From contig JALGZO010000527.1 in assembly GCA_025774865.1 (NCBI GenBank), positions 1 to 6,490 on the forward strand: DNA of 6,490 nt, written 5' to 3'. Shown piece by piece: positions 212 to 6,490 of this stretch (position 1 is its first letter; each line of letters opens with the position of its first letter). The notes under the pieces are model-generated. The model saw only the letters and a list, made by a program, of their open reading frames with translations, was not told where the DNA came from and did not search any database. The position numbers were made by a program, and so were the translations under genes. The DNA is from a bacterium (lineage in GTDB: Bacteria > ARS69).

Positions 212-1288
212 TCACCGGCCGGCCGACACGCGGAACAGGTGCAGTAGCACGTGGACAACCAATCCGATCACGATGAACGGTATGAGGATCTTGTAGAACA
301 CGCCCACGAGGTATACCAGGGGCGCGTGCTCGAGGGACGGCTCGTAGTGCGAGAGCCATGCCGCCGGAAAATCCGGGGAAGCGTCCTCGTGGCACCGCTG
401 GCAAGCCTTCGAGACGACGGCCTTCATCTCCTCGTCCCCGCGAACCTTGGGTGACTGCATGTCGTGAACGCCGTGGCAGTCCACACAAGTGACGACGACC
501 TGCCGGGGGTCCGGCTCGGTGTCGGACGCGAGGGACGCCGTGACCCCGTGGAAATCGGACAGGTACGTGGAGGCCACCGTCGCGGAGATCCCGTACCGGG
601 ACATGAGCTCCGCATCACCGTGACACCGAATGCAGATCTCCGGCGAGCTCAATCGAAAGCGAGCCGTTCGGGCGTCCTCGATCCGGTGGTGGGCGTGGCA
701 GTCGGCACACGCCGGGACGTCCGGGTCGTGATTCTCGACGAGCGCCGAGCCGTGCACGCTCTCTGCGTATCGCTCGTAGATGGACGTGTGGCAGGCCGCG
801 CAGCTGCGGGACACCATCGTGCGCTTCTCGTGCGGATTCTGGATGCCGTGCGCGCCGTGGCAGTCCGTGCACACCGGCGCGGACTCCAGCCCCTCTTTCA
901 GCAGGTGGTAATGAACGCTTTCGAGCGTGCGCGTGTAGGTATCGAAGTGGCAGGTCTTGCAGACTTCGTAGTGGTCCAGGACGTACTCACGTCGGCTCGA
1001 CACTTCGTCTTCGGGATGCTCGTCGTCGTAGCCTTCGTGGCAATCCGTGCACTCGAGGTCGGCGCCGTGGACGGAGGCGGCGAACTCCTCCGGGTCCACG
1101 AAGACGCTCATCTCGGACCCGTCCCCGAGGTCCATCGTGGCTTCGGAATCCTCGTGGCAATCCAGACAATCCCACACGCTCTCGGGGAGCTCGTCTCCCG
1201 AGGCGGCGCCAGCGAGGAACATGCCGGCGAGCATTCCCGGCCACGATTGGCGCAGGGAAGCTCGCCACCCGCACGGGGCCCATCGCAT
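212..1288 (-). CDS. membrane-anchored nonaheme c-type cytochrome
   Basis: The 358-residue product has nine CXXCH heme c attachment motifs, at residues 41, 80, 110, 140, 163, 194, 219, 268 and 296 (first Cys). An N-terminal export signal is visible: arginines in residues 2-13, then a hydrophobic LAGMFLAGAAS core with probable cleavage near residue 30. The heme domain should therefore lie in the periplasm. Repeated S-V-H-G elements (His74, His179) and other histidines between motifs are candidate distal heme ligands. Residues about 323-352 form a C-terminal transmembrane helix containing His346 and His350, with a short Arg-containing tail on the cytoplasmic side. The next gene, 10 bp away, encodes a b-type cytochrome, so this protein most likely exchanges electrons between the quinone pool (through cytochrome b) and periplasmic carriers. 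The ATG at 1288 is the only start preserving the basic signal-peptide n-region, although its ribosome binding site is weak (GGTGG). The exact partner and electron direction are unknown. Confidence 0.93.
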   Translation of the reverse strand: MRWAPCGWRASLRQSWPGMLAGMFLAGAASGDELPESVWDCLDCHEDSEATMDLGDGSEMSVFVDPEEFAASVHGADLECTDCHEGYDDEHPEDEVSSRREYVLDHYEVCKTCHFDTYTRTLESVHYHLLKEGLESAPVCTDCHGAHGIQNPHEKRTMVSRSCAACHTSIYERYAESVHGSALVENHDPDVPACADCHAHHRIEDARTARFRLSSPEICIRCHGDAELMSRYGISATVASTYLSDFHGVTASLASDTEPDPRQVVVTCVDCHGVHDMQSPKVRGDEEMKAVVSKACQRCHEDASPDFPAAWLSHYEPSLEHAPLVYLVGVFYKILIPFIVIGLVVHVLLHLFRVSAGR

Positions 1289-1348: not shown

Positions 1349-1768
1349 CTACCGGTCGTCGCGATCGGTCTCTTCCAGTTTGTTCCTGACCTCGTGGGCC
1401 CACTCGTCCTCGGACTTCTTCGGGGCGCGAGCCGATTTCCGCTTGGACCGGCTGAGGAAAGCCATCGACGGCTCCCATCCCGGCCGGAGCACACGCACGG
1501 CTGACGCCGCCGCGCTGCCAATCAGCTCCGCAGTCTTCCCCGCCAAGAGCCAGAGAACCATGGCAAGCCCGATGAAGGGCAGGAAGATCACGTAAATCAG
1601 GCCGAGGAACGGGCCCGCGAACATGAGCACGAACCAAGGCACCCCATGGTACACCTCGGCCTCGGTGCCGGGGAGTCGACCCTCGTGCTCCATGGACTTG
1701 AAGGAGAGCTGACGGAGATTGAAGTAGAGTCCCGGTGCAACCGTCTCGTTACCTTTGAAGCGTTTCAT
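1349..1768 (-). CDS. small membrane protein of unknown function, first gene of the cytochrome operon
   Basis: I do not recognise the family. The 139-residue product has a basic N-terminus (MKRFKGNETV) and a soluble stretch of about 40 residues. A strongly hydrophobic block follows at about residues 44-77, interrupted by Pro52 and Pro64, so it could be one long helix or a tight two-helix hairpin. The last 40 residues are highly charged (SRSKRKSARAPKKSEDEW), probably cytoplasmic. It contains no cysteine and no heme motif. The start chosen is the ATG at 1768 because AAAGGGGGTGG lies at a good distance upstream. A GTG at 1777 would add three residues but overlaps that ribosome binding site. The gene lies 60 bp upstream of the nonaheme cytochrome in the same direction. 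A role as an assembly factor or small subunit of the cytochrome complex is inference from position only. Confidence 0.8.
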   Translation of the reverse strand: MKRFKGNETVAPGLYFNLRQLSFKSMEHEGRLPGTEAEVYHGVPWFVLMFAGPFLGLIYVIFLPFIGLAMVLWLLAGKTAELIGSAAASAVRVLRPGWEPSMAFLSRSKRKSARAPKKSEDEWAHEVRNKLEETDRDDR

Positions 1769-1773
1769 TTTTG

Positions 1774-1784
1774 CCACCCCCTTT
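1774..1784 (-). promoter_or_regulatory. ribosome binding site deciding the start of the small membrane protein
   Basis: Read on the minus strand this is AAAGGGGGTGG followed by CAAAA and the ATG at 1768. It is the strongest purine-rich stretch upstream of this operon. It lies inside the longer GTG-initiated reading, which favours the ATG. Confidence 0.55.
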
Positions 1785-2064: not shown

Positions 2065-3222
2065 ATGAAACGCAAGACTATGAAGGCCGGCGCGCACATC
2101 GCTTCGATCGTCGTGATCGCCGCGCTCCTGTCGGCTTCGGCGGCGCGGGGCCATGATGACGACCACTACTACGAATACAGCGACGCGCCCCACGGCGGCG
2201 CGTACGACGACTTGCATGGCTACGGGTACTGGCGCTACGTGCCGAGCGTCGGGGCTCGCCTGTGGTTCCCCTACGTCGAGGCGTCCTGGCGCCCCTACTA
2301 CCACGGCCACTGGATCCACACGAGCGCCGGGATGACCTGGGTGTCGTACGAGCCCTGGGGCGCGATCCCCCACCACTACGGACAGTGGGTGCACGTGGAT
2401 CACCTGGGCTGGGGCTGGGTGCCGGGCTGGGAGTACTCCCCGGCCTGGGTGACCTGGGGCGTCGTCGACGGCTACGTCGGCTGGGTCCCGTGTGCACCGG
2501 CCGGCTACCGCTACCCGCGGTACCCGCACTATCGCGCCGGAATCTGGGCGCGCCCGTATGGCTGGGCCGGATCGTTCGGTTACCACACTTCGGGTTTCGA
2601 TCTCTCTCTCTGGGTCTTCGTCCCGAATGACCATTTCTACGCTACGCCGGTGCACCGGCATGCTCTGCCCCCGCGGGACTCGTTGAGCCTCGTCAAGTGG
2701 AAGGGCATCCGGCCCAACCAGCACCTCAGCGTGGACTACGTGCAGAAGATCTCGAAGCAGAAGATCAGAACGGTCGAAACGGTCCGCAAGACGAAGCGCA
2801 TCGGAGATCGGTCGATCCCGCTGTACGAACCGCGAGGTCAACAGGACAAGGTCCGTAGCGGCCGGGAGCTCGCGAAGCGTTCGTACAAGAAGGTCCGCGA
2901 AGCGACCGGCGTCGAGGCCGAGCGGCGCGCGAAGCCATCTCGGCTGATCGCCGCGGCGGACCCGGTGAGTGTGAACAAGAAGCGGGAAGCGCCGGCGACG
3001 ACGAAGCGCACTGAGAAGAAGCAGCGATCGTCGTCGAAGGTCGAGGCTCGTGAGAAGAACCGCAGGACGAAGTCGACTGCGCCATCGGCGGAAGTGGACG
3101 AGCGTTCGGAGAAATCTCGCCGCGAGAGCACCGAGTCCGAGGCCCCGAAGCGCCGCACGAAGTCGAAGGAGTCACAGAAACGGAAGAACGCTCAGACATC
3201 CAAGTCGAGGACGCGGCGGTAA
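2065..3222 (+). CDS. DUF6600-family secreted protein with long basic C-terminal tail
   Basis: The 385-residue product opens with a signal peptide (Lys/Arg start, then HIASIVVIAALLSASAA), cleaved near residues 27-29. Residues about 46-145 match the DUF6600 pattern as I know it. There is a YDDLHGYGYWRYVP opening, then tandem Trp/Gly/Pro/Tyr-rich units such as WVSYEPWGAIPHHYGQW, GWGWVPGWEYSPAWVTWG and DGYVGWVP, suggesting a repeated small beta module. A Tyr/His-rich linker follows to about residue 200. From about residue 240 to the end the protein is dominated by Lys, Arg, Ser, Glu and Thr with no hydrophobic core, so it is probably disordered and strongly positive. One cysteine (Cys143) remains in the mature protein. 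DUF6600 has no assigned biochemical activity that I know of. A location in the periplasm or outside the cell and binding to an anionic polymer are inference. The 3' end overlaps the convergent glycosyltransferase gene by 31 bp. Confidence 0.85.
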   Translation: MKRKTMKAGAHIASIVVIAALLSASAARGHDDDHYYEYSDAPHGGAYDDLHGYGYWRYVPSVGARLWFPYVEASWRPYYHGHWIHTSAGMTWVSYEPWGAIPHHYGQWVHVDHLGWGWVPGWEYSPAWVTWGVVDGYVGWVPCAPAGYRYPRYPHYRAGIWARPYGWAGSFGYHTSGFDLSLWVFVPNDHFYATPVHRHALPPRDSLSLVKWKGIRPNQHLSVDYVQKISKQKIRTVETVRKTKRIGDRSIPLYEPRGQQDKVRSGRELAKRSYKKVREATGVEAERRAKPSRLIAAADPVSVNKKREAPATTKRTEKKQRSSSKVEAREKNRRTKSTAPSAEVDERSEKSRRESTESEAPKRRTKSKESQKRKNAQTSKSRTRR

Positions 3223-4331
3223 ACCGCAAGAGTCCGCTCCGCCGCCGTCTGCCACGAGAAGTCAGCCCGCCGGTTCGCCGCCCGTTCGAGGAGGCGCCGG
3301 CGGGCTTCCTCGTCTCGGAGAACCTGATCGATCGCGTGCGCGATCGCGCCCTCGTCCTCCGGATCCACCGCGACCCCCGCCTCGCCGAGGACTTCGCCCA
3401 GGGCGGTCGTCTTGGACGCGACCACCGGCGTCTCGCAGCCCATCGCTTCGAGAATCGGAAGACCGAATCCCTCATAGAGGGACAGGAGGACGAACGCCTC
3501 GGCCGCCGTGTAGGCGGGCGCGAGCTCGTCGACCGCCACGCCGGCCAGGAAGTGAACGCGACCCTCGAGTCCCGCACGCCCGACCTCTCGCTCCGGCTCG
3601 CCGTAGTCGCGATAGGGTTGGCCGACGATCACCAGGTCGTGAGTCTCGCGCGACCGGCTACGCGCGAACGCGCGGATGAGCCGGGCGTGGTTCTTGTGCG
3701 GGCGCCGCTCGCCCACCGTGAGCACGAAGGGGCGCTCGAGTCCGTACTTGGAGAGGAACGCACCCACTGCATCTGAGTCCGCCGGCTGGAAGAGAGGATC
3801 CGCCGCCAGCGGGATGACGTCGACTCGGTTCTCCGCAACGCGGAACAGCCGTACGAGATCCGCCCGCGACGACTCGGAGATCGTCAGGACCGCGGCGGAC
3901 CGCCGCAAGCTCTGCCCGAAACAAAAACGCATGTACCGGCGCTTGAGGGAGCTCAAATCGGGGAAGAATTCCGGGTGGACGAGGTACTTCACGTCGTAGA
4001 GCGTGACGACCACCGGCACTCGCTGGAGCAGCACGGGCGCGTCGAAGTGTGGATAATGCAGCAGGTCCGCCCCCAGGCGGCGGGCCAGGTTCGGAACGGT
4101 GACGTGCTGCCGTAGAGACATGTGCCGCTCGCGGCTCACGTGCTGCGAGAGGTTCGGCGCATCCCACTCGTCGATCCCGTAGCCGGCCCAGGGTTGGGGT
4201 CGGCGGATCACGTGAAAGTGCCAGTCGGGCGCGATCCGCATCAGGTTCGGGAGGAGACTCACGACGTATTGCCCGATTCCGGTGGGCTTCTCGAGCACGA
4301 GGCGTGCGTCGAACAGCACGGTGGCGGACAT
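3192..4331 (-). CDS. family 4 glycosyltransferase (GT-B fold)
   Basis: The 379-residue product has the length and motif order of a complete GT4 enzyme, which transfers a sugar from a nucleotide-sugar donor with retention of configuration. The N-terminal acceptor half has the glycine loop TGIGQY (17-22), LLHYPHFDAP (90-99) and VTLYDVKYLVHPEFF (109-123). The C-terminal donor half has VLTVGERRPHKN (203-214, with the conserved Lys213) and the E-x7-E nucleotide-sugar signature LYEGFGLPILEAM (Glu287, Glu295). There is no signal peptide or membrane segment, so it should act at the cytoplasmic face of the inner membrane. It resembles mannosyl- or rhamnosyltransferases of O-antigen and exopolysaccharide clusters (WbpY/MtfB-like), but donor and acceptor cannot be read from the sequence. 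It is transcribed divergently from the GT2-GT4 fusion, which supports a shared polysaccharide locus. The ATG at 4331 gives the expected beta-strand start; its ribosome binding site is weak. Confidence 0.92.
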   Translation of the reverse strand: MSATVLFDARLVLEKPTGIGQYVVSLLPNLMRIAPDWHFHVIRRPQPWAGYGIDEWDAPNLSQHVSRERHMSLRQHVTVPNLARRLGADLLHYPHFDAPVLLQRVPVVVTLYDVKYLVHPEFFPDLSSLKRRYMRFCFGQSLRRSAAVLTISESSRADLVRLFRVAENRVDVIPLAADPLFQPADSDAVGAFLSKYGLERPFVLTVGERRPHKNHARLIRAFARSRSRETHDLVIVGQPYRDYGEPEREVGRAGLEGRVHFLAGVAVDELAPAYTAAEAFVLLSLYEGFGLPILEAMGCETPVVASKTTALGEVLGEAGVAVDPEDEGAIAHAIDQVLRDEEARRRLLERAANRRADFSWQTAAERTLAVYRRVLDLDV

Positions 4332-4379: not shown

Positions 4380-4407
4380 AAGGTAGCGGCTCCCCCGCCG
4401 GGGTCAA
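4380..4407 (-). promoter_or_regulatory. weak candidate promoter for the minus-strand GT4 gene
   Basis: On the minus strand TTGACC (4407-4402) lies 16 bases before TACCTT (4385-4380). The -35 matches 5 of 6 positions, the -10 only 3 of 6. A start near 4373 would give a leader of about 40 bases before the ATG at 4331. Its -35 lies in the left arm of the inverted repeat described below. Confidence 0.25.
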
Positions 4408-4447
4408 GGGAGGACACGCCTTCGGGAACATCGTGAGGACCCTTGAC
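4403..4447. repeat. 8-bp inverted repeat in the divergent glycosyltransferase promoter region
   Basis: GTCAAGGG (4403-4410) and CCCTTGAC (4440-4447) are perfect inverted copies with a 29-base spacer. Each arm overlaps a TTGAC -35 element, pointing leftward and rightward respectively. The spacing between arm centres is 37 bp. This could be a two-site operator or simply two symmetric promoters. Confidence 0.45.
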
Positions 4448-4471
4448 ATGCCCCGTGGAAGCCCAAATATT
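4443..4471 (+). promoter_or_regulatory. sigma-70-like promoter for the GT2-GT4 fusion gene
   Basis: A perfect -35 TTGACA (4443-4448) is followed after 17 bases by AATATT (4466-4471), which matches TATAAT at 4 of 6 positions. The AT-rich patch AAATATT stands out in this GC-rich region. Transcription would begin near 4478, about 40 bases before the leader ORF and 110 bases before the GTG start. Confidence 0.5.
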
Positions 4472-4518
4472 GGCGGAACCCCACCCTCGGATCCAACTTC
4501 GAACATGACAGAGTTCCG

Positions 4519-4590
4519 ATGAACAAATCCCTGCCTGACGTCGGGATCGCTGAACCGATTCGCGCGTCCCACGGATCGGAGACGCAGTGA
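4519..4590 (+). CDS. possible 23-codon leader ORF coupled to the fusion gene
   Basis: An ATG at 4519 opens 23 codons, beginning MNKSLPDVGIAEP, and ends with TGA at 4588-4590. That stop overlaps the downstream GTG start in the four-base sequence GTGA, the classic layout for translational coupling. The ribosome binding site of the fusion gene (GGAG, 4578-4581) lies inside this frame. Upstream of the ATG only a weak AGAG is seen. The peptide resembles nothing I know and has no run of one amino acid that would suggest attenuation. It may be chance; the overlap is the main argument for it. Confidence 0.3.
   Translation: MNKSLPDVGIAEPIRASHGSETQ
4578..4581 (+). promoter_or_regulatory. ribosome binding site supporting the GTG start of the fusion gene
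   Basis: GGAG followed by ACGCA and GTG gives a five-base spacing. An in-frame TGA at 4551-4553 closes the frame upstream, and no other ATG, GTG or TTG codon lies in frame between that stop and 4587, so the GTG is the only reasonable start. Confidence 0.6.
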
Positions 4591-6490
4591 CCGTCTCCCT
4601 GATCACCGTGACCTACAACGGTGGAGCTTCGATCGTCGGCGACCTCCGTGGAATCGCGCAGATCGTCGGCGACGAGGTCGACGAGTTTCTCGTGGTGGAC
4701 AGCGGCTCGACCGACGCAACGGCCGAGCGGATCGGCGACGAGCTCTCGGAGGTTCGCCTGATCGCCGAGCCGCAGAACCGCGGCTATGCCTCCGCGGTCA
4801 ATCGGGGGATCGCGGAAGCGACCGGCGACGTTCTCGTGATCCTCAACCCCGACGCTTTCCCGGAAGCGGGCGCGGTGGAGCGCTTGGGCCAGATCGCGCT
4901 CGAGCACCCCGAGTTTCTTCTGCTGGGTGGGACTCTGGTGGATGCGACCGGGCGCGCACAACGCAACGGCTCGGGACCGCTCCCCCGACTCGGCGATGTG
5001 CTGCGCGAAGGCATCTTCCTCCCGCGCCCCAAGGTCGCGGGATTCGAGCGCATCGCGGCCGGGGGGCCGGGGGTCGTCGAGGCAGGATTCATCTCCGGCG
5101 CGGTGATGGCGATCCTGAGGCGCAACCTCGAAAAGCTCGGCCCGATGGACGACGATTATTTCCTCTACAACGAGGACGTGGAGTGGTGCCACCGAGCGTG
5201 GAGTCGCGGCGGACGGGTCGGCATCGTGCCCTCGGCCCGCTTCGAACACGCGGGGGGAGCCACGACGCGAGAGGCGGAGCGTGATCCGTTTGCCGCTCGA
5301 GTCCTCTCGGACTTTCAGTATCACGTGGAGGTCCGGGGCGTTGCGGCGGAGCTCGTCCGCCGGAGATGGCTCCTGAGGACTCGGTTCCGTTCGTGGCTTT
5401 ACGGCGCGGACGCCAAGCTCAAGATTCTCGGAGGCCGCCCGAACTCCGCCGAACGCGCGAGGAACTATCGAGACCTGCACCGCGCGCTGAGGCTTTTCCG
5501 CTGGTCGACAGATGCGAACCGGCAGAACGGGCTGCCCTCCCGTCTCTTCGAGAGACCCACGCGTCCGCGGGTCGTGCATCTCATCACCCGGCTCATCGTG
5601 GGCGGGGCCCAGGAGAACACCGTCGCCTCCGTGGAGCAGGTCGATCCGGCGCGCTTCGAGTCCCGACTCTGGATGGGACCTCAAACGGGGGACGAAGGCT
5701 CGCTCGTCGGCGACGCCCGGCGCCGTGGGATCGCCCCGCAGATCATTCCGAACCTGGTGCGGCAGATCCATCCGCTGAAGGATCTGCTCGTCACCGCCGA
5801 GCTCGCCCGACGGTTCCGGCGCGAGCGCGTCGACCTGGTTCACACCCACAGCTCGAAAGCGGGGATCGTGGGACGACTGGCCGCCCGGATCGCCGGCGTT
5901 CCGGTCATCGTGCACACGGTCCACGGGTGGGGCTTTCACGAGCACATGTCCCCCTTCGTCCGCGGCGTGTACGTCTTTCTCGAGCGCCTGATGCAGGGTT
6001 TCACGGACCGGTTGATCTCCGTCTCCGAAGAGACGACCCGCATCGGACTCGAAAGGGCGATCGGCGTTCCGGAGAAGTACACGCTCATCCGAAGCGGGAT
6101 TCCGCTCGCACGCTTCCATCCCGACGACTCACTCCGCCGAGCGATGCGTCACGAGCTCGGAATCCTCGAGGGGGAGATCGTGATCGGGTCGGTGGGGCGG
6201 CTTTCGCCGCAGAAGAACCCACTCGACTTCGTTCGCGTGGCCCGGCAGCTGCTGTCGACTCACCCGCATCTCCGCTTTCTGTACGTGGGCGACGGGGCCC
6301 TTCGCCCGGAGTTCGAAGCCGCCGCCGGCGACTCACCGATCCCGGATCGCATCACGCTGCTCGGCCTGCGCGACGACGTGCCGGATCTTCTGCGCGCACT
6401 GGACATCTTCGTTCTGACGTCGCTCTGGGAGGGGTTGCCGCGGGTCGTGCCCCAGGCGCTCTCCACCGGCGTTCCTGTCGTCGTTTACAA
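4587..6490 (+). CDS. fused GT2-GT4 bifunctional glycosyltransferase (partial, runs off the right edge)
   Basis: The frame stays open for 634 codons from GTG to the window edge. Residues 1 to about 300 form a GT2 (GT-A) domain: LITVTYNGG (5-13), VVDSGSTDAT (36-45, Asp38), LNPDA (86-90, in the place of the DXD motif) and the acceptor/base region FLYNEDVEWCHRA (192-204). This pattern is typical of WbbL-like rhamnosyltransferases. After a basic linker, a complete GT4 N-lobe begins at VVHLITRLIVGGAQENT (329-345). It continues with HTHSSKAGIVGRL (419-431), HTVHGWGFH (443-451), the donor-site VGRLSPQKNP (536-545, Arg538 and Lys543) and SLWEGLPRVVPQAL (612-625). Perhaps 70-100 residues are missing at the end. 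No membrane helix is visible. The protein should add two sugars, probably in succession, to a lipid-linked glycan on the cytoplasmic side; the sugars are unknown. The second Glu of the GT4 E-x7-E signature is Gln623. I re-read every codon and found no stop or frameshift at the junction. Confidence 0.9.
   Translation, partial: MTVSLITVTYNGGASIVGDLRGIAQIVGDEVDEFLVVDSGSTDATAERIGDELSEVRLIAEPQNRGYASAVNRGIAEATGDVLVILNPDAFPEAGAVERLGQIALEHPEFLLLGGTLVDATGRAQRNGSGPLPRLGDVLREGIFLPRPKVAGFERIAAGGPGVVEAGFISGAVMAILRRNLEKLGPMDDDYFLYNEDVEWCHRAWSRGGRVGIVPSARFEHAGGATTREAERDPFAARVLSDFQYHVEVRGVAAELVRRRWLLRTRFRSWLYGADAKLKILGGRPNSAERARNYRDLHRALRLFRWSTDANRQNGLPSRLFERPTRPRVVHLITRLIVGGAQENTVASVEQVDPARFESRLWMGPQTGDEGSLVGDARRRGIAPQIIPNLVRQIHPLKDLLVTAELARRFRRERVDLVHTHSSKAGIVGRLAARIAGVPVIVHTVHGWGFHEHMSPFVRGVYVFLERLMQGFTDRLISVSEETTRIGLERAIGVPEKYTLIRSGIPLARFHPDDSLRRAMRHELGILEGEIVIGSVGRLSPQKNPLDFVRVARQLLSTHPHLRFLYVGDGALRPEFEAAAGDSPIPDRITLLGLRDDVPDLLRALDIFVLTSLWEGLPRVVPQALSTGVPVVVY

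Follow-up and report, generated by a model that had tools for sequence, protein, structure and literature searches.

The final gene of the window (the whole 6,490-nucleotide stretch of DNA that was analysed) encodes a GT2 and a GT4 glycosyltransferase module in a single reading frame, and this fusion is real. By alignment, the protein is the form without the middle module of a glycosyltransferase family in Candidatus Eisenbacteria-like bacteria, most members of which are trimodular (GT2-GT4a-GT4b). It is probably a bimodular cytoplasmic glycosyltransferase that carries out two transfers, most likely successive, onto a lipid-linked repeat unit in the synthesis of a Wzx/Wzy-type exopolysaccharide. 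The gene is of an already known sort, because proteins with several glycosyltransferase modules are known and two unrelated GT2-GT4 fusions were found (Table 1), and by itself it is an ordinary, well-formed example. The family-level picture, in which the modules occur in twos, in threes, split and swapped, is more interesting than the window gene. Fusions hint at which transferases work together, here in bacteria known from metagenome-assembled records, and the family offers a natural experiment for asking if the structure of a polysaccharide repeat can be predicted from the modules that one protein contains.

The fused gene and its domains

The GTG codon at 4587 agrees with the start of the homologous proteins in the alignment, and open reading frame analysis found no stop codon between it and the end of the contig. 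The window is a complete contig (C531) of a 4.7 Mb genome in 785 contigs with an estimated contamination of 8.3%, so the gene is interrupted by the assembly. Judged from homologues, roughly 75-90 C-terminal residues are missing, and no close match to the remainder of GT4b was found on the other contigs of this genome. An open run of this length would arise by chance at the given base composition with p ~1.6e-7; the gene is taken to be coding because of its domain matches and its alignment to 12 relatives. The first-pass annotation, made from the letters alone, had described a GT2 followed by a GT4 in one uninterrupted frame with no stop in the window, and both points hold, as the Pfam order is the same and the 634 codons run to the contig end.

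Table 1. Positions of the features discussed, in the window unless another locus is named
Feature	Position	Strand	Basis or remark
Fused GT2-GT4 gene	4587..6488	+	GTG start, 634 codons, 3' end cut by contig end
GT2 (GT-A) module with helical C-terminal tail ending RWSTDANRQNGLPSRL	4587..5546	+	Pfam, alignment, AlphaFold helices
Inter-module linker FERPT, 5 residues	5547..5561	+	Alignment A1, frame analysis
GT4 (GT-B) module "GT4b", incomplete at contig end	5562..6488	+	Pfam; 60-68% identical to GT4b of relatives
571-codon open frame opposite the gene, judged spurious	4404..6119	-	Pfam negative, codon-position GC
Sigma-70-like promoter candidate TTGACA-17-AATATT	4443..4471	+	Consensus scan
Divergent stand-alone GT4 glycosyltransferase	3192..4331	-	Pfam Glycos_transf_1 4.9e-32
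DUF6600 protein with long Lys/Arg/Ser-rich C-terminal tail	2065-3222	+	Pfam
Multihaem cytochrome with CXXCH repeats, weakly DmsE/NrfH-like	212-1288	-	Pfam, NCBIfam
Unrelated GT2-GT4 fusion	L115 863-2947 (G033)	+	Pfam
Unrelated GT2-GT4 fusion with C-terminal methyltransferase	L065 4263-7535 (G052)	-	Pfam

Pfam placed Glycos_transf_2 at residues 4-109 (E 4e-17), Glyco_trans_4_4, the N-lobe of GT4, at residues 340-501 (E 3e-17), and the GT4 C-lobe within residues 519-634, including Glyco_trans_1_4 at 532-633 (E 1e-21). The GT2 module scored 63 bits against PF00535 (Glycos_transf_2; gathering cut-off 23.3), and both GT4 lobes were likewise above their cut-offs (PF00534 / PF13579; 63.9 vs 29.7 and 75.1 vs 26.4). 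None of the 13 aligned proteins departs from the GT2 residues D38, N87, D89, E196 and D197 or from the GT4 residues R538, K543 and E615. We take D38, the NxD at 87-89 and the ED at 196-197 to form the GT-A site of the GT2 module, and R538, K543 and E615, the last of these in an EX7E-type motif, presumably belong to the site of the GT4 module. The motif itself reads E615...Q623, with Gln in place of the second Glu in 13 of 13 proteins. The first-pass annotation had stated that each half keeps its nucleotide-sugar motifs; this stands for the active-site columns and needs correcting for the second Glu of EX7E in the GT4 half. The GT4a modules mostly keep the second Glu, whereas every GT4b has Gln.

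The sugar donor of the GT2 module had been suggested by the label "rhamnosyltransferase-like", and this label proved weak, with a TIGR01556 score of 40.8 bits against a curated cut-off of 200.55. The top Foldseek matches, with 14-20% identity and a TM of ~0.3 over the whole model, were GalNAc-transferases and the rhamnosyltransferase RmlT; they therefore indicate a GT-A fold and not a donor sugar. Rhamnose specificity was rejected on these two grounds. For GT4b the best NCBIfam match was TIGR03088 (Stp2, a glycosyltransferase of the PEP-CTERM/XrtA system; E 8.5e-43), yet the module is not a member of that family because its score is under the curated cut-off (146.8 vs 409.05 bits, for an incomplete protein). 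The complete relative L104 reached 260.8 bits, likewise under the cut-off.

Relatives and module architectures

Relatives were gathered by a scan of genome contigs and by whole-genome searches. The nearest named relatives are Candidatus Eisenbacteria and Candidatus Effluviviaceae, and the records are metagenome-assembled. Within the phylum of G061, the GT2 module was found in 13 of 20 genomes and GT4b in the same 13. Twelve of these carriers (L094-L106 except L101) have a single open frame GT2-GT4a-GT4b of about 1,075-1,107 residues, in which GT4a is a second, different GT4 of ~360 residues. The thirteenth (G061, L101) has GT2 and GT4b as adjacent genes ~17 nt apart with no GT4a between them. 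Among four relatives from the window's own family, G003 and G004 carry GT2 alone, G002 carries GT4b alone and G001 carries neither at that level; the unfused GT2 of G003 is 56% identical to that of the window. The first-pass annotation would have been refuted by relatives that consistently encode two separate genes, and the split is not consistent: 12 of the 13 carriers keep one frame, with the extra GT4 inside it, although the modules are single in the window's own family.

The window protein shares with the trimodular proteins the order of the modules and the single frame (44-50% identity in GT2 and 59-67% in GT4b), and differs from them in having no ~360-residue GT4a. The loci differ as well, as the gene upstream in the window is a divergent GT4 and not Wzy, the upstream gene checked by Pfam in L100. 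No relatives were found in viral contigs, and searches of plasmids and phages gave only matches below 60% identity, none over 80% of the query. The two unrelated fusions in L115 and L065 have the same GT2-then-GT4 order with only 27-33% identity over both halves, and they probably arose separately from that of the window. In open-access papers we found no direct match for published GT2-GT4 fusion enzymes, nothing relevant on the glycosyltransferase genes of Eisenbacteria, and no description of the family as two-module, three-module, split and swapped forms.

The join between the modules

In the alignment with 12 relatives, the window protein matches the GT2 module and its tail up to residue ~320 and the GT4 module from residue ~326. 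The tail residues W306, Q313, P317, R319 and L320 are invariant in this alignment, the tail is also found in the unfused homologue L060 (RWSTVEGAQNAHPDRL), and the unfused GT2 of G003 ends in the same tail followed by a stop (RWSTVEGAQNAHPDRLRSGVTE). As the conserved tail reaches residue 320 and is present in unfused GT2 proteins, the true linker is ~5 residues long (321-325). An Arg-rich linker at about 300-328 had been described previously, and most of it now has to be reassigned to the GT2 tail. The GT4a module of the trimodular relatives occupies this joint, and the window protein is without columns ~345-716 of alignment A1. The AlphaFold model has helices at residues 232-303 in the region of the GT2 tail; its confidence is modest (mean pLDDT 74.8, pTM 0.53) and it does not give the arrangement of the modules firmly.

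An assembly or sequencing artefact, in which separate GT2 and GT4b genes were wrongly joined in a fragmented metagenome-type genome, could in principle produce such a frame, and the number of contigs and the estimated contamination of the source genome, the single modules in the window's own family and the adjacent GT2 and GT4b genes of one related genome are in keeping with it. We consider this very unlikely. A one-base error at the join leaves GT2 overrunning GT4 by 74 codons, or without a stop, and outside the gene's frame there is a single ATG shortly 5' of GT4, at 5512. Since an indel at the join would not give a normal gene pair, the fusion is unlikely to stem from a simple indel. The conserved motifs that flank the join share one frame and lie ~15 nt apart, codon-position GC is steady across the join with a GC-rich third position on either side, and by alignment the join falls on a module boundary of the trimodular family. 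Still less credence is given to the idea that translation starts inside the gene and yields GT4 mainly as a protein of its own, the fusion being incidental. GTG codons lie in frame at 5574 and 5598, but a start at 5574 would cost GT4b residues right at its first strand, inspection by eye showed no convincing ribosome-binding site just 5' of it, and 12 related genomes retain the one-frame arrangement.

Possible origins of the two-module gene

The genuine two-module gene could have been derived from a trimodular GT2-GT4a-GT4b gene by loss of the middle module. The alignment, in which exactly the GT4a segment is missing from the window protein, would fit such a loss, as would the search of the window's genome, where no good match to GT4a was found (best E 2e-9, 28% identity). 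The trees speak against it. The window protein clusters with the unfused GT2 proteins of G003 and G004 in the GT2 tree (support 100/97), and in the GT4b tree it adjoins, from outside, the set of 12 trimodular proteins and L101 (86/85 for the set; 99/95 with the window). These positions favour an independent fusion or an ancestral two-module form over the loss of GT4a, which we regard as unlikely. Constraining the window to group with the trimodular proteins was not rejected (p 0.097), and neither was constraining it to group with G002 (p 0.065).

Possible exchange of modules between trimodular proteins

The trees of GT2, GT4a and GT4b from the trimodular proteins conflict with strong support. 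Constrained trees were rejected for GT4b with L095 and L097 together (p 4e-59) and for GT4a with L095 and L104 together (p 0.002), the groups for these tests having been picked after the trees were seen. At the DNA level, L104 and L095 are 91% identical in GT4b and 53% in GT4a, and the identity jumps at the GT4a/GT4b joint from 33% at column 691 to 89% at column 721. L096 and L100 are 85% identical in GT2, 91% in GT4a and 69% in GT4b. The conflicting trees and the sharp changes in identity suggest intragenic recombination by module among the trimodular proteins; chimeric metagenome assembly is an alternative source of these patterns. It is conceivable, though we hold it only tentatively, that the window protein represents one arrangement within a modular system for assembling glycans: recombination at the linkers would add, remove and exchange whole glycosyltransferase modules inside a single gene, and the succession of modules would determine the repeat unit. 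If this is true, the module string would give two transfers in the window form and three in the GT2-GT4a-GT4b relatives.

Predicted function

Each module is predicted to make one linkage, GT2 at a GT-A site and GT4 at a GT-B site. Both transfers would take place in one pathway, most likely in succession, and the acceptor would be the repeat unit of a Wzx/Wzy-type exopolysaccharide while it is assembled in the cytoplasm on its lipid carrier. Because it has no GT4a, the window form would add one sugar fewer than the trimodular form.

The assignment to this pathway comes from the neighbours of the homologues. In L100 the gene order is UDP-sugar dehydrogenase, dTDP-sugar isomerase-like protein, Wza-type exporter, Wzz, Wzx, Wzy, the trimodular fusion, epimerase and WecA-like phosphoglycosyl transferase. 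The split genes of L101 are also flanked by Wzx and Wzy genes, and the unfused GT2 genes of G003 and G004 lie directly 3' of Wzy. A role in repeat-unit synthesis had been proposed in the first-pass annotation, and a role in repeat-unit or exopolysaccharide synthesis is supported by these neighbours (Wza, Wzz, Wzx, Wzy and WecA-like), from which it is carried over to the window, where the gene itself has only the divergent GT4 beside it. GT2 and GT4b occur apart in the window's family (G003, G002) and therefore need not serve one pathway everywhere.

Several glycosyltransferase modules that make different linkages are present in WbdA (K. pneumoniae O3/O5, E. coli O9/O8) and in the K. pneumoniae O7 ORF6 and O12 proteins (PMC11231755), and WsaE of Geobacillus is a further multi-module glycosyltransferase making different linkages (PMC2943079). 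The window protein is like these in having several modules in one polypeptide, and the prediction of one linkage per module is made by analogy with them. They belong to ABC-transporter-dependent pathways, whereas the GT2-GT4 family described here is found with Wzx/Wzy genes.

Opposite strand and neighbouring genes

The 571-codon open frame on the opposite strand had been flagged as a possible source of error, correctly so, since it is present and looks spurious. It matched no Pfam family and its GC content peaks at codon position 1 and not 3, as expected of the shadow of a real gene, and it was rejected as a gene. No Wzx or Wzy gene was seen in the window, where the neighbours identified by Pfam are the divergent GT4, the DUF6600 protein and the cytochrome. 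A 142-aa open reading frame at 1349-1777 (-), on the same strand as the cytochrome, had no family match. The promoter candidate upstream of the fused gene has 10 of 12 consensus matches, compared with 0.0 +/- 0.2 in shuffles.
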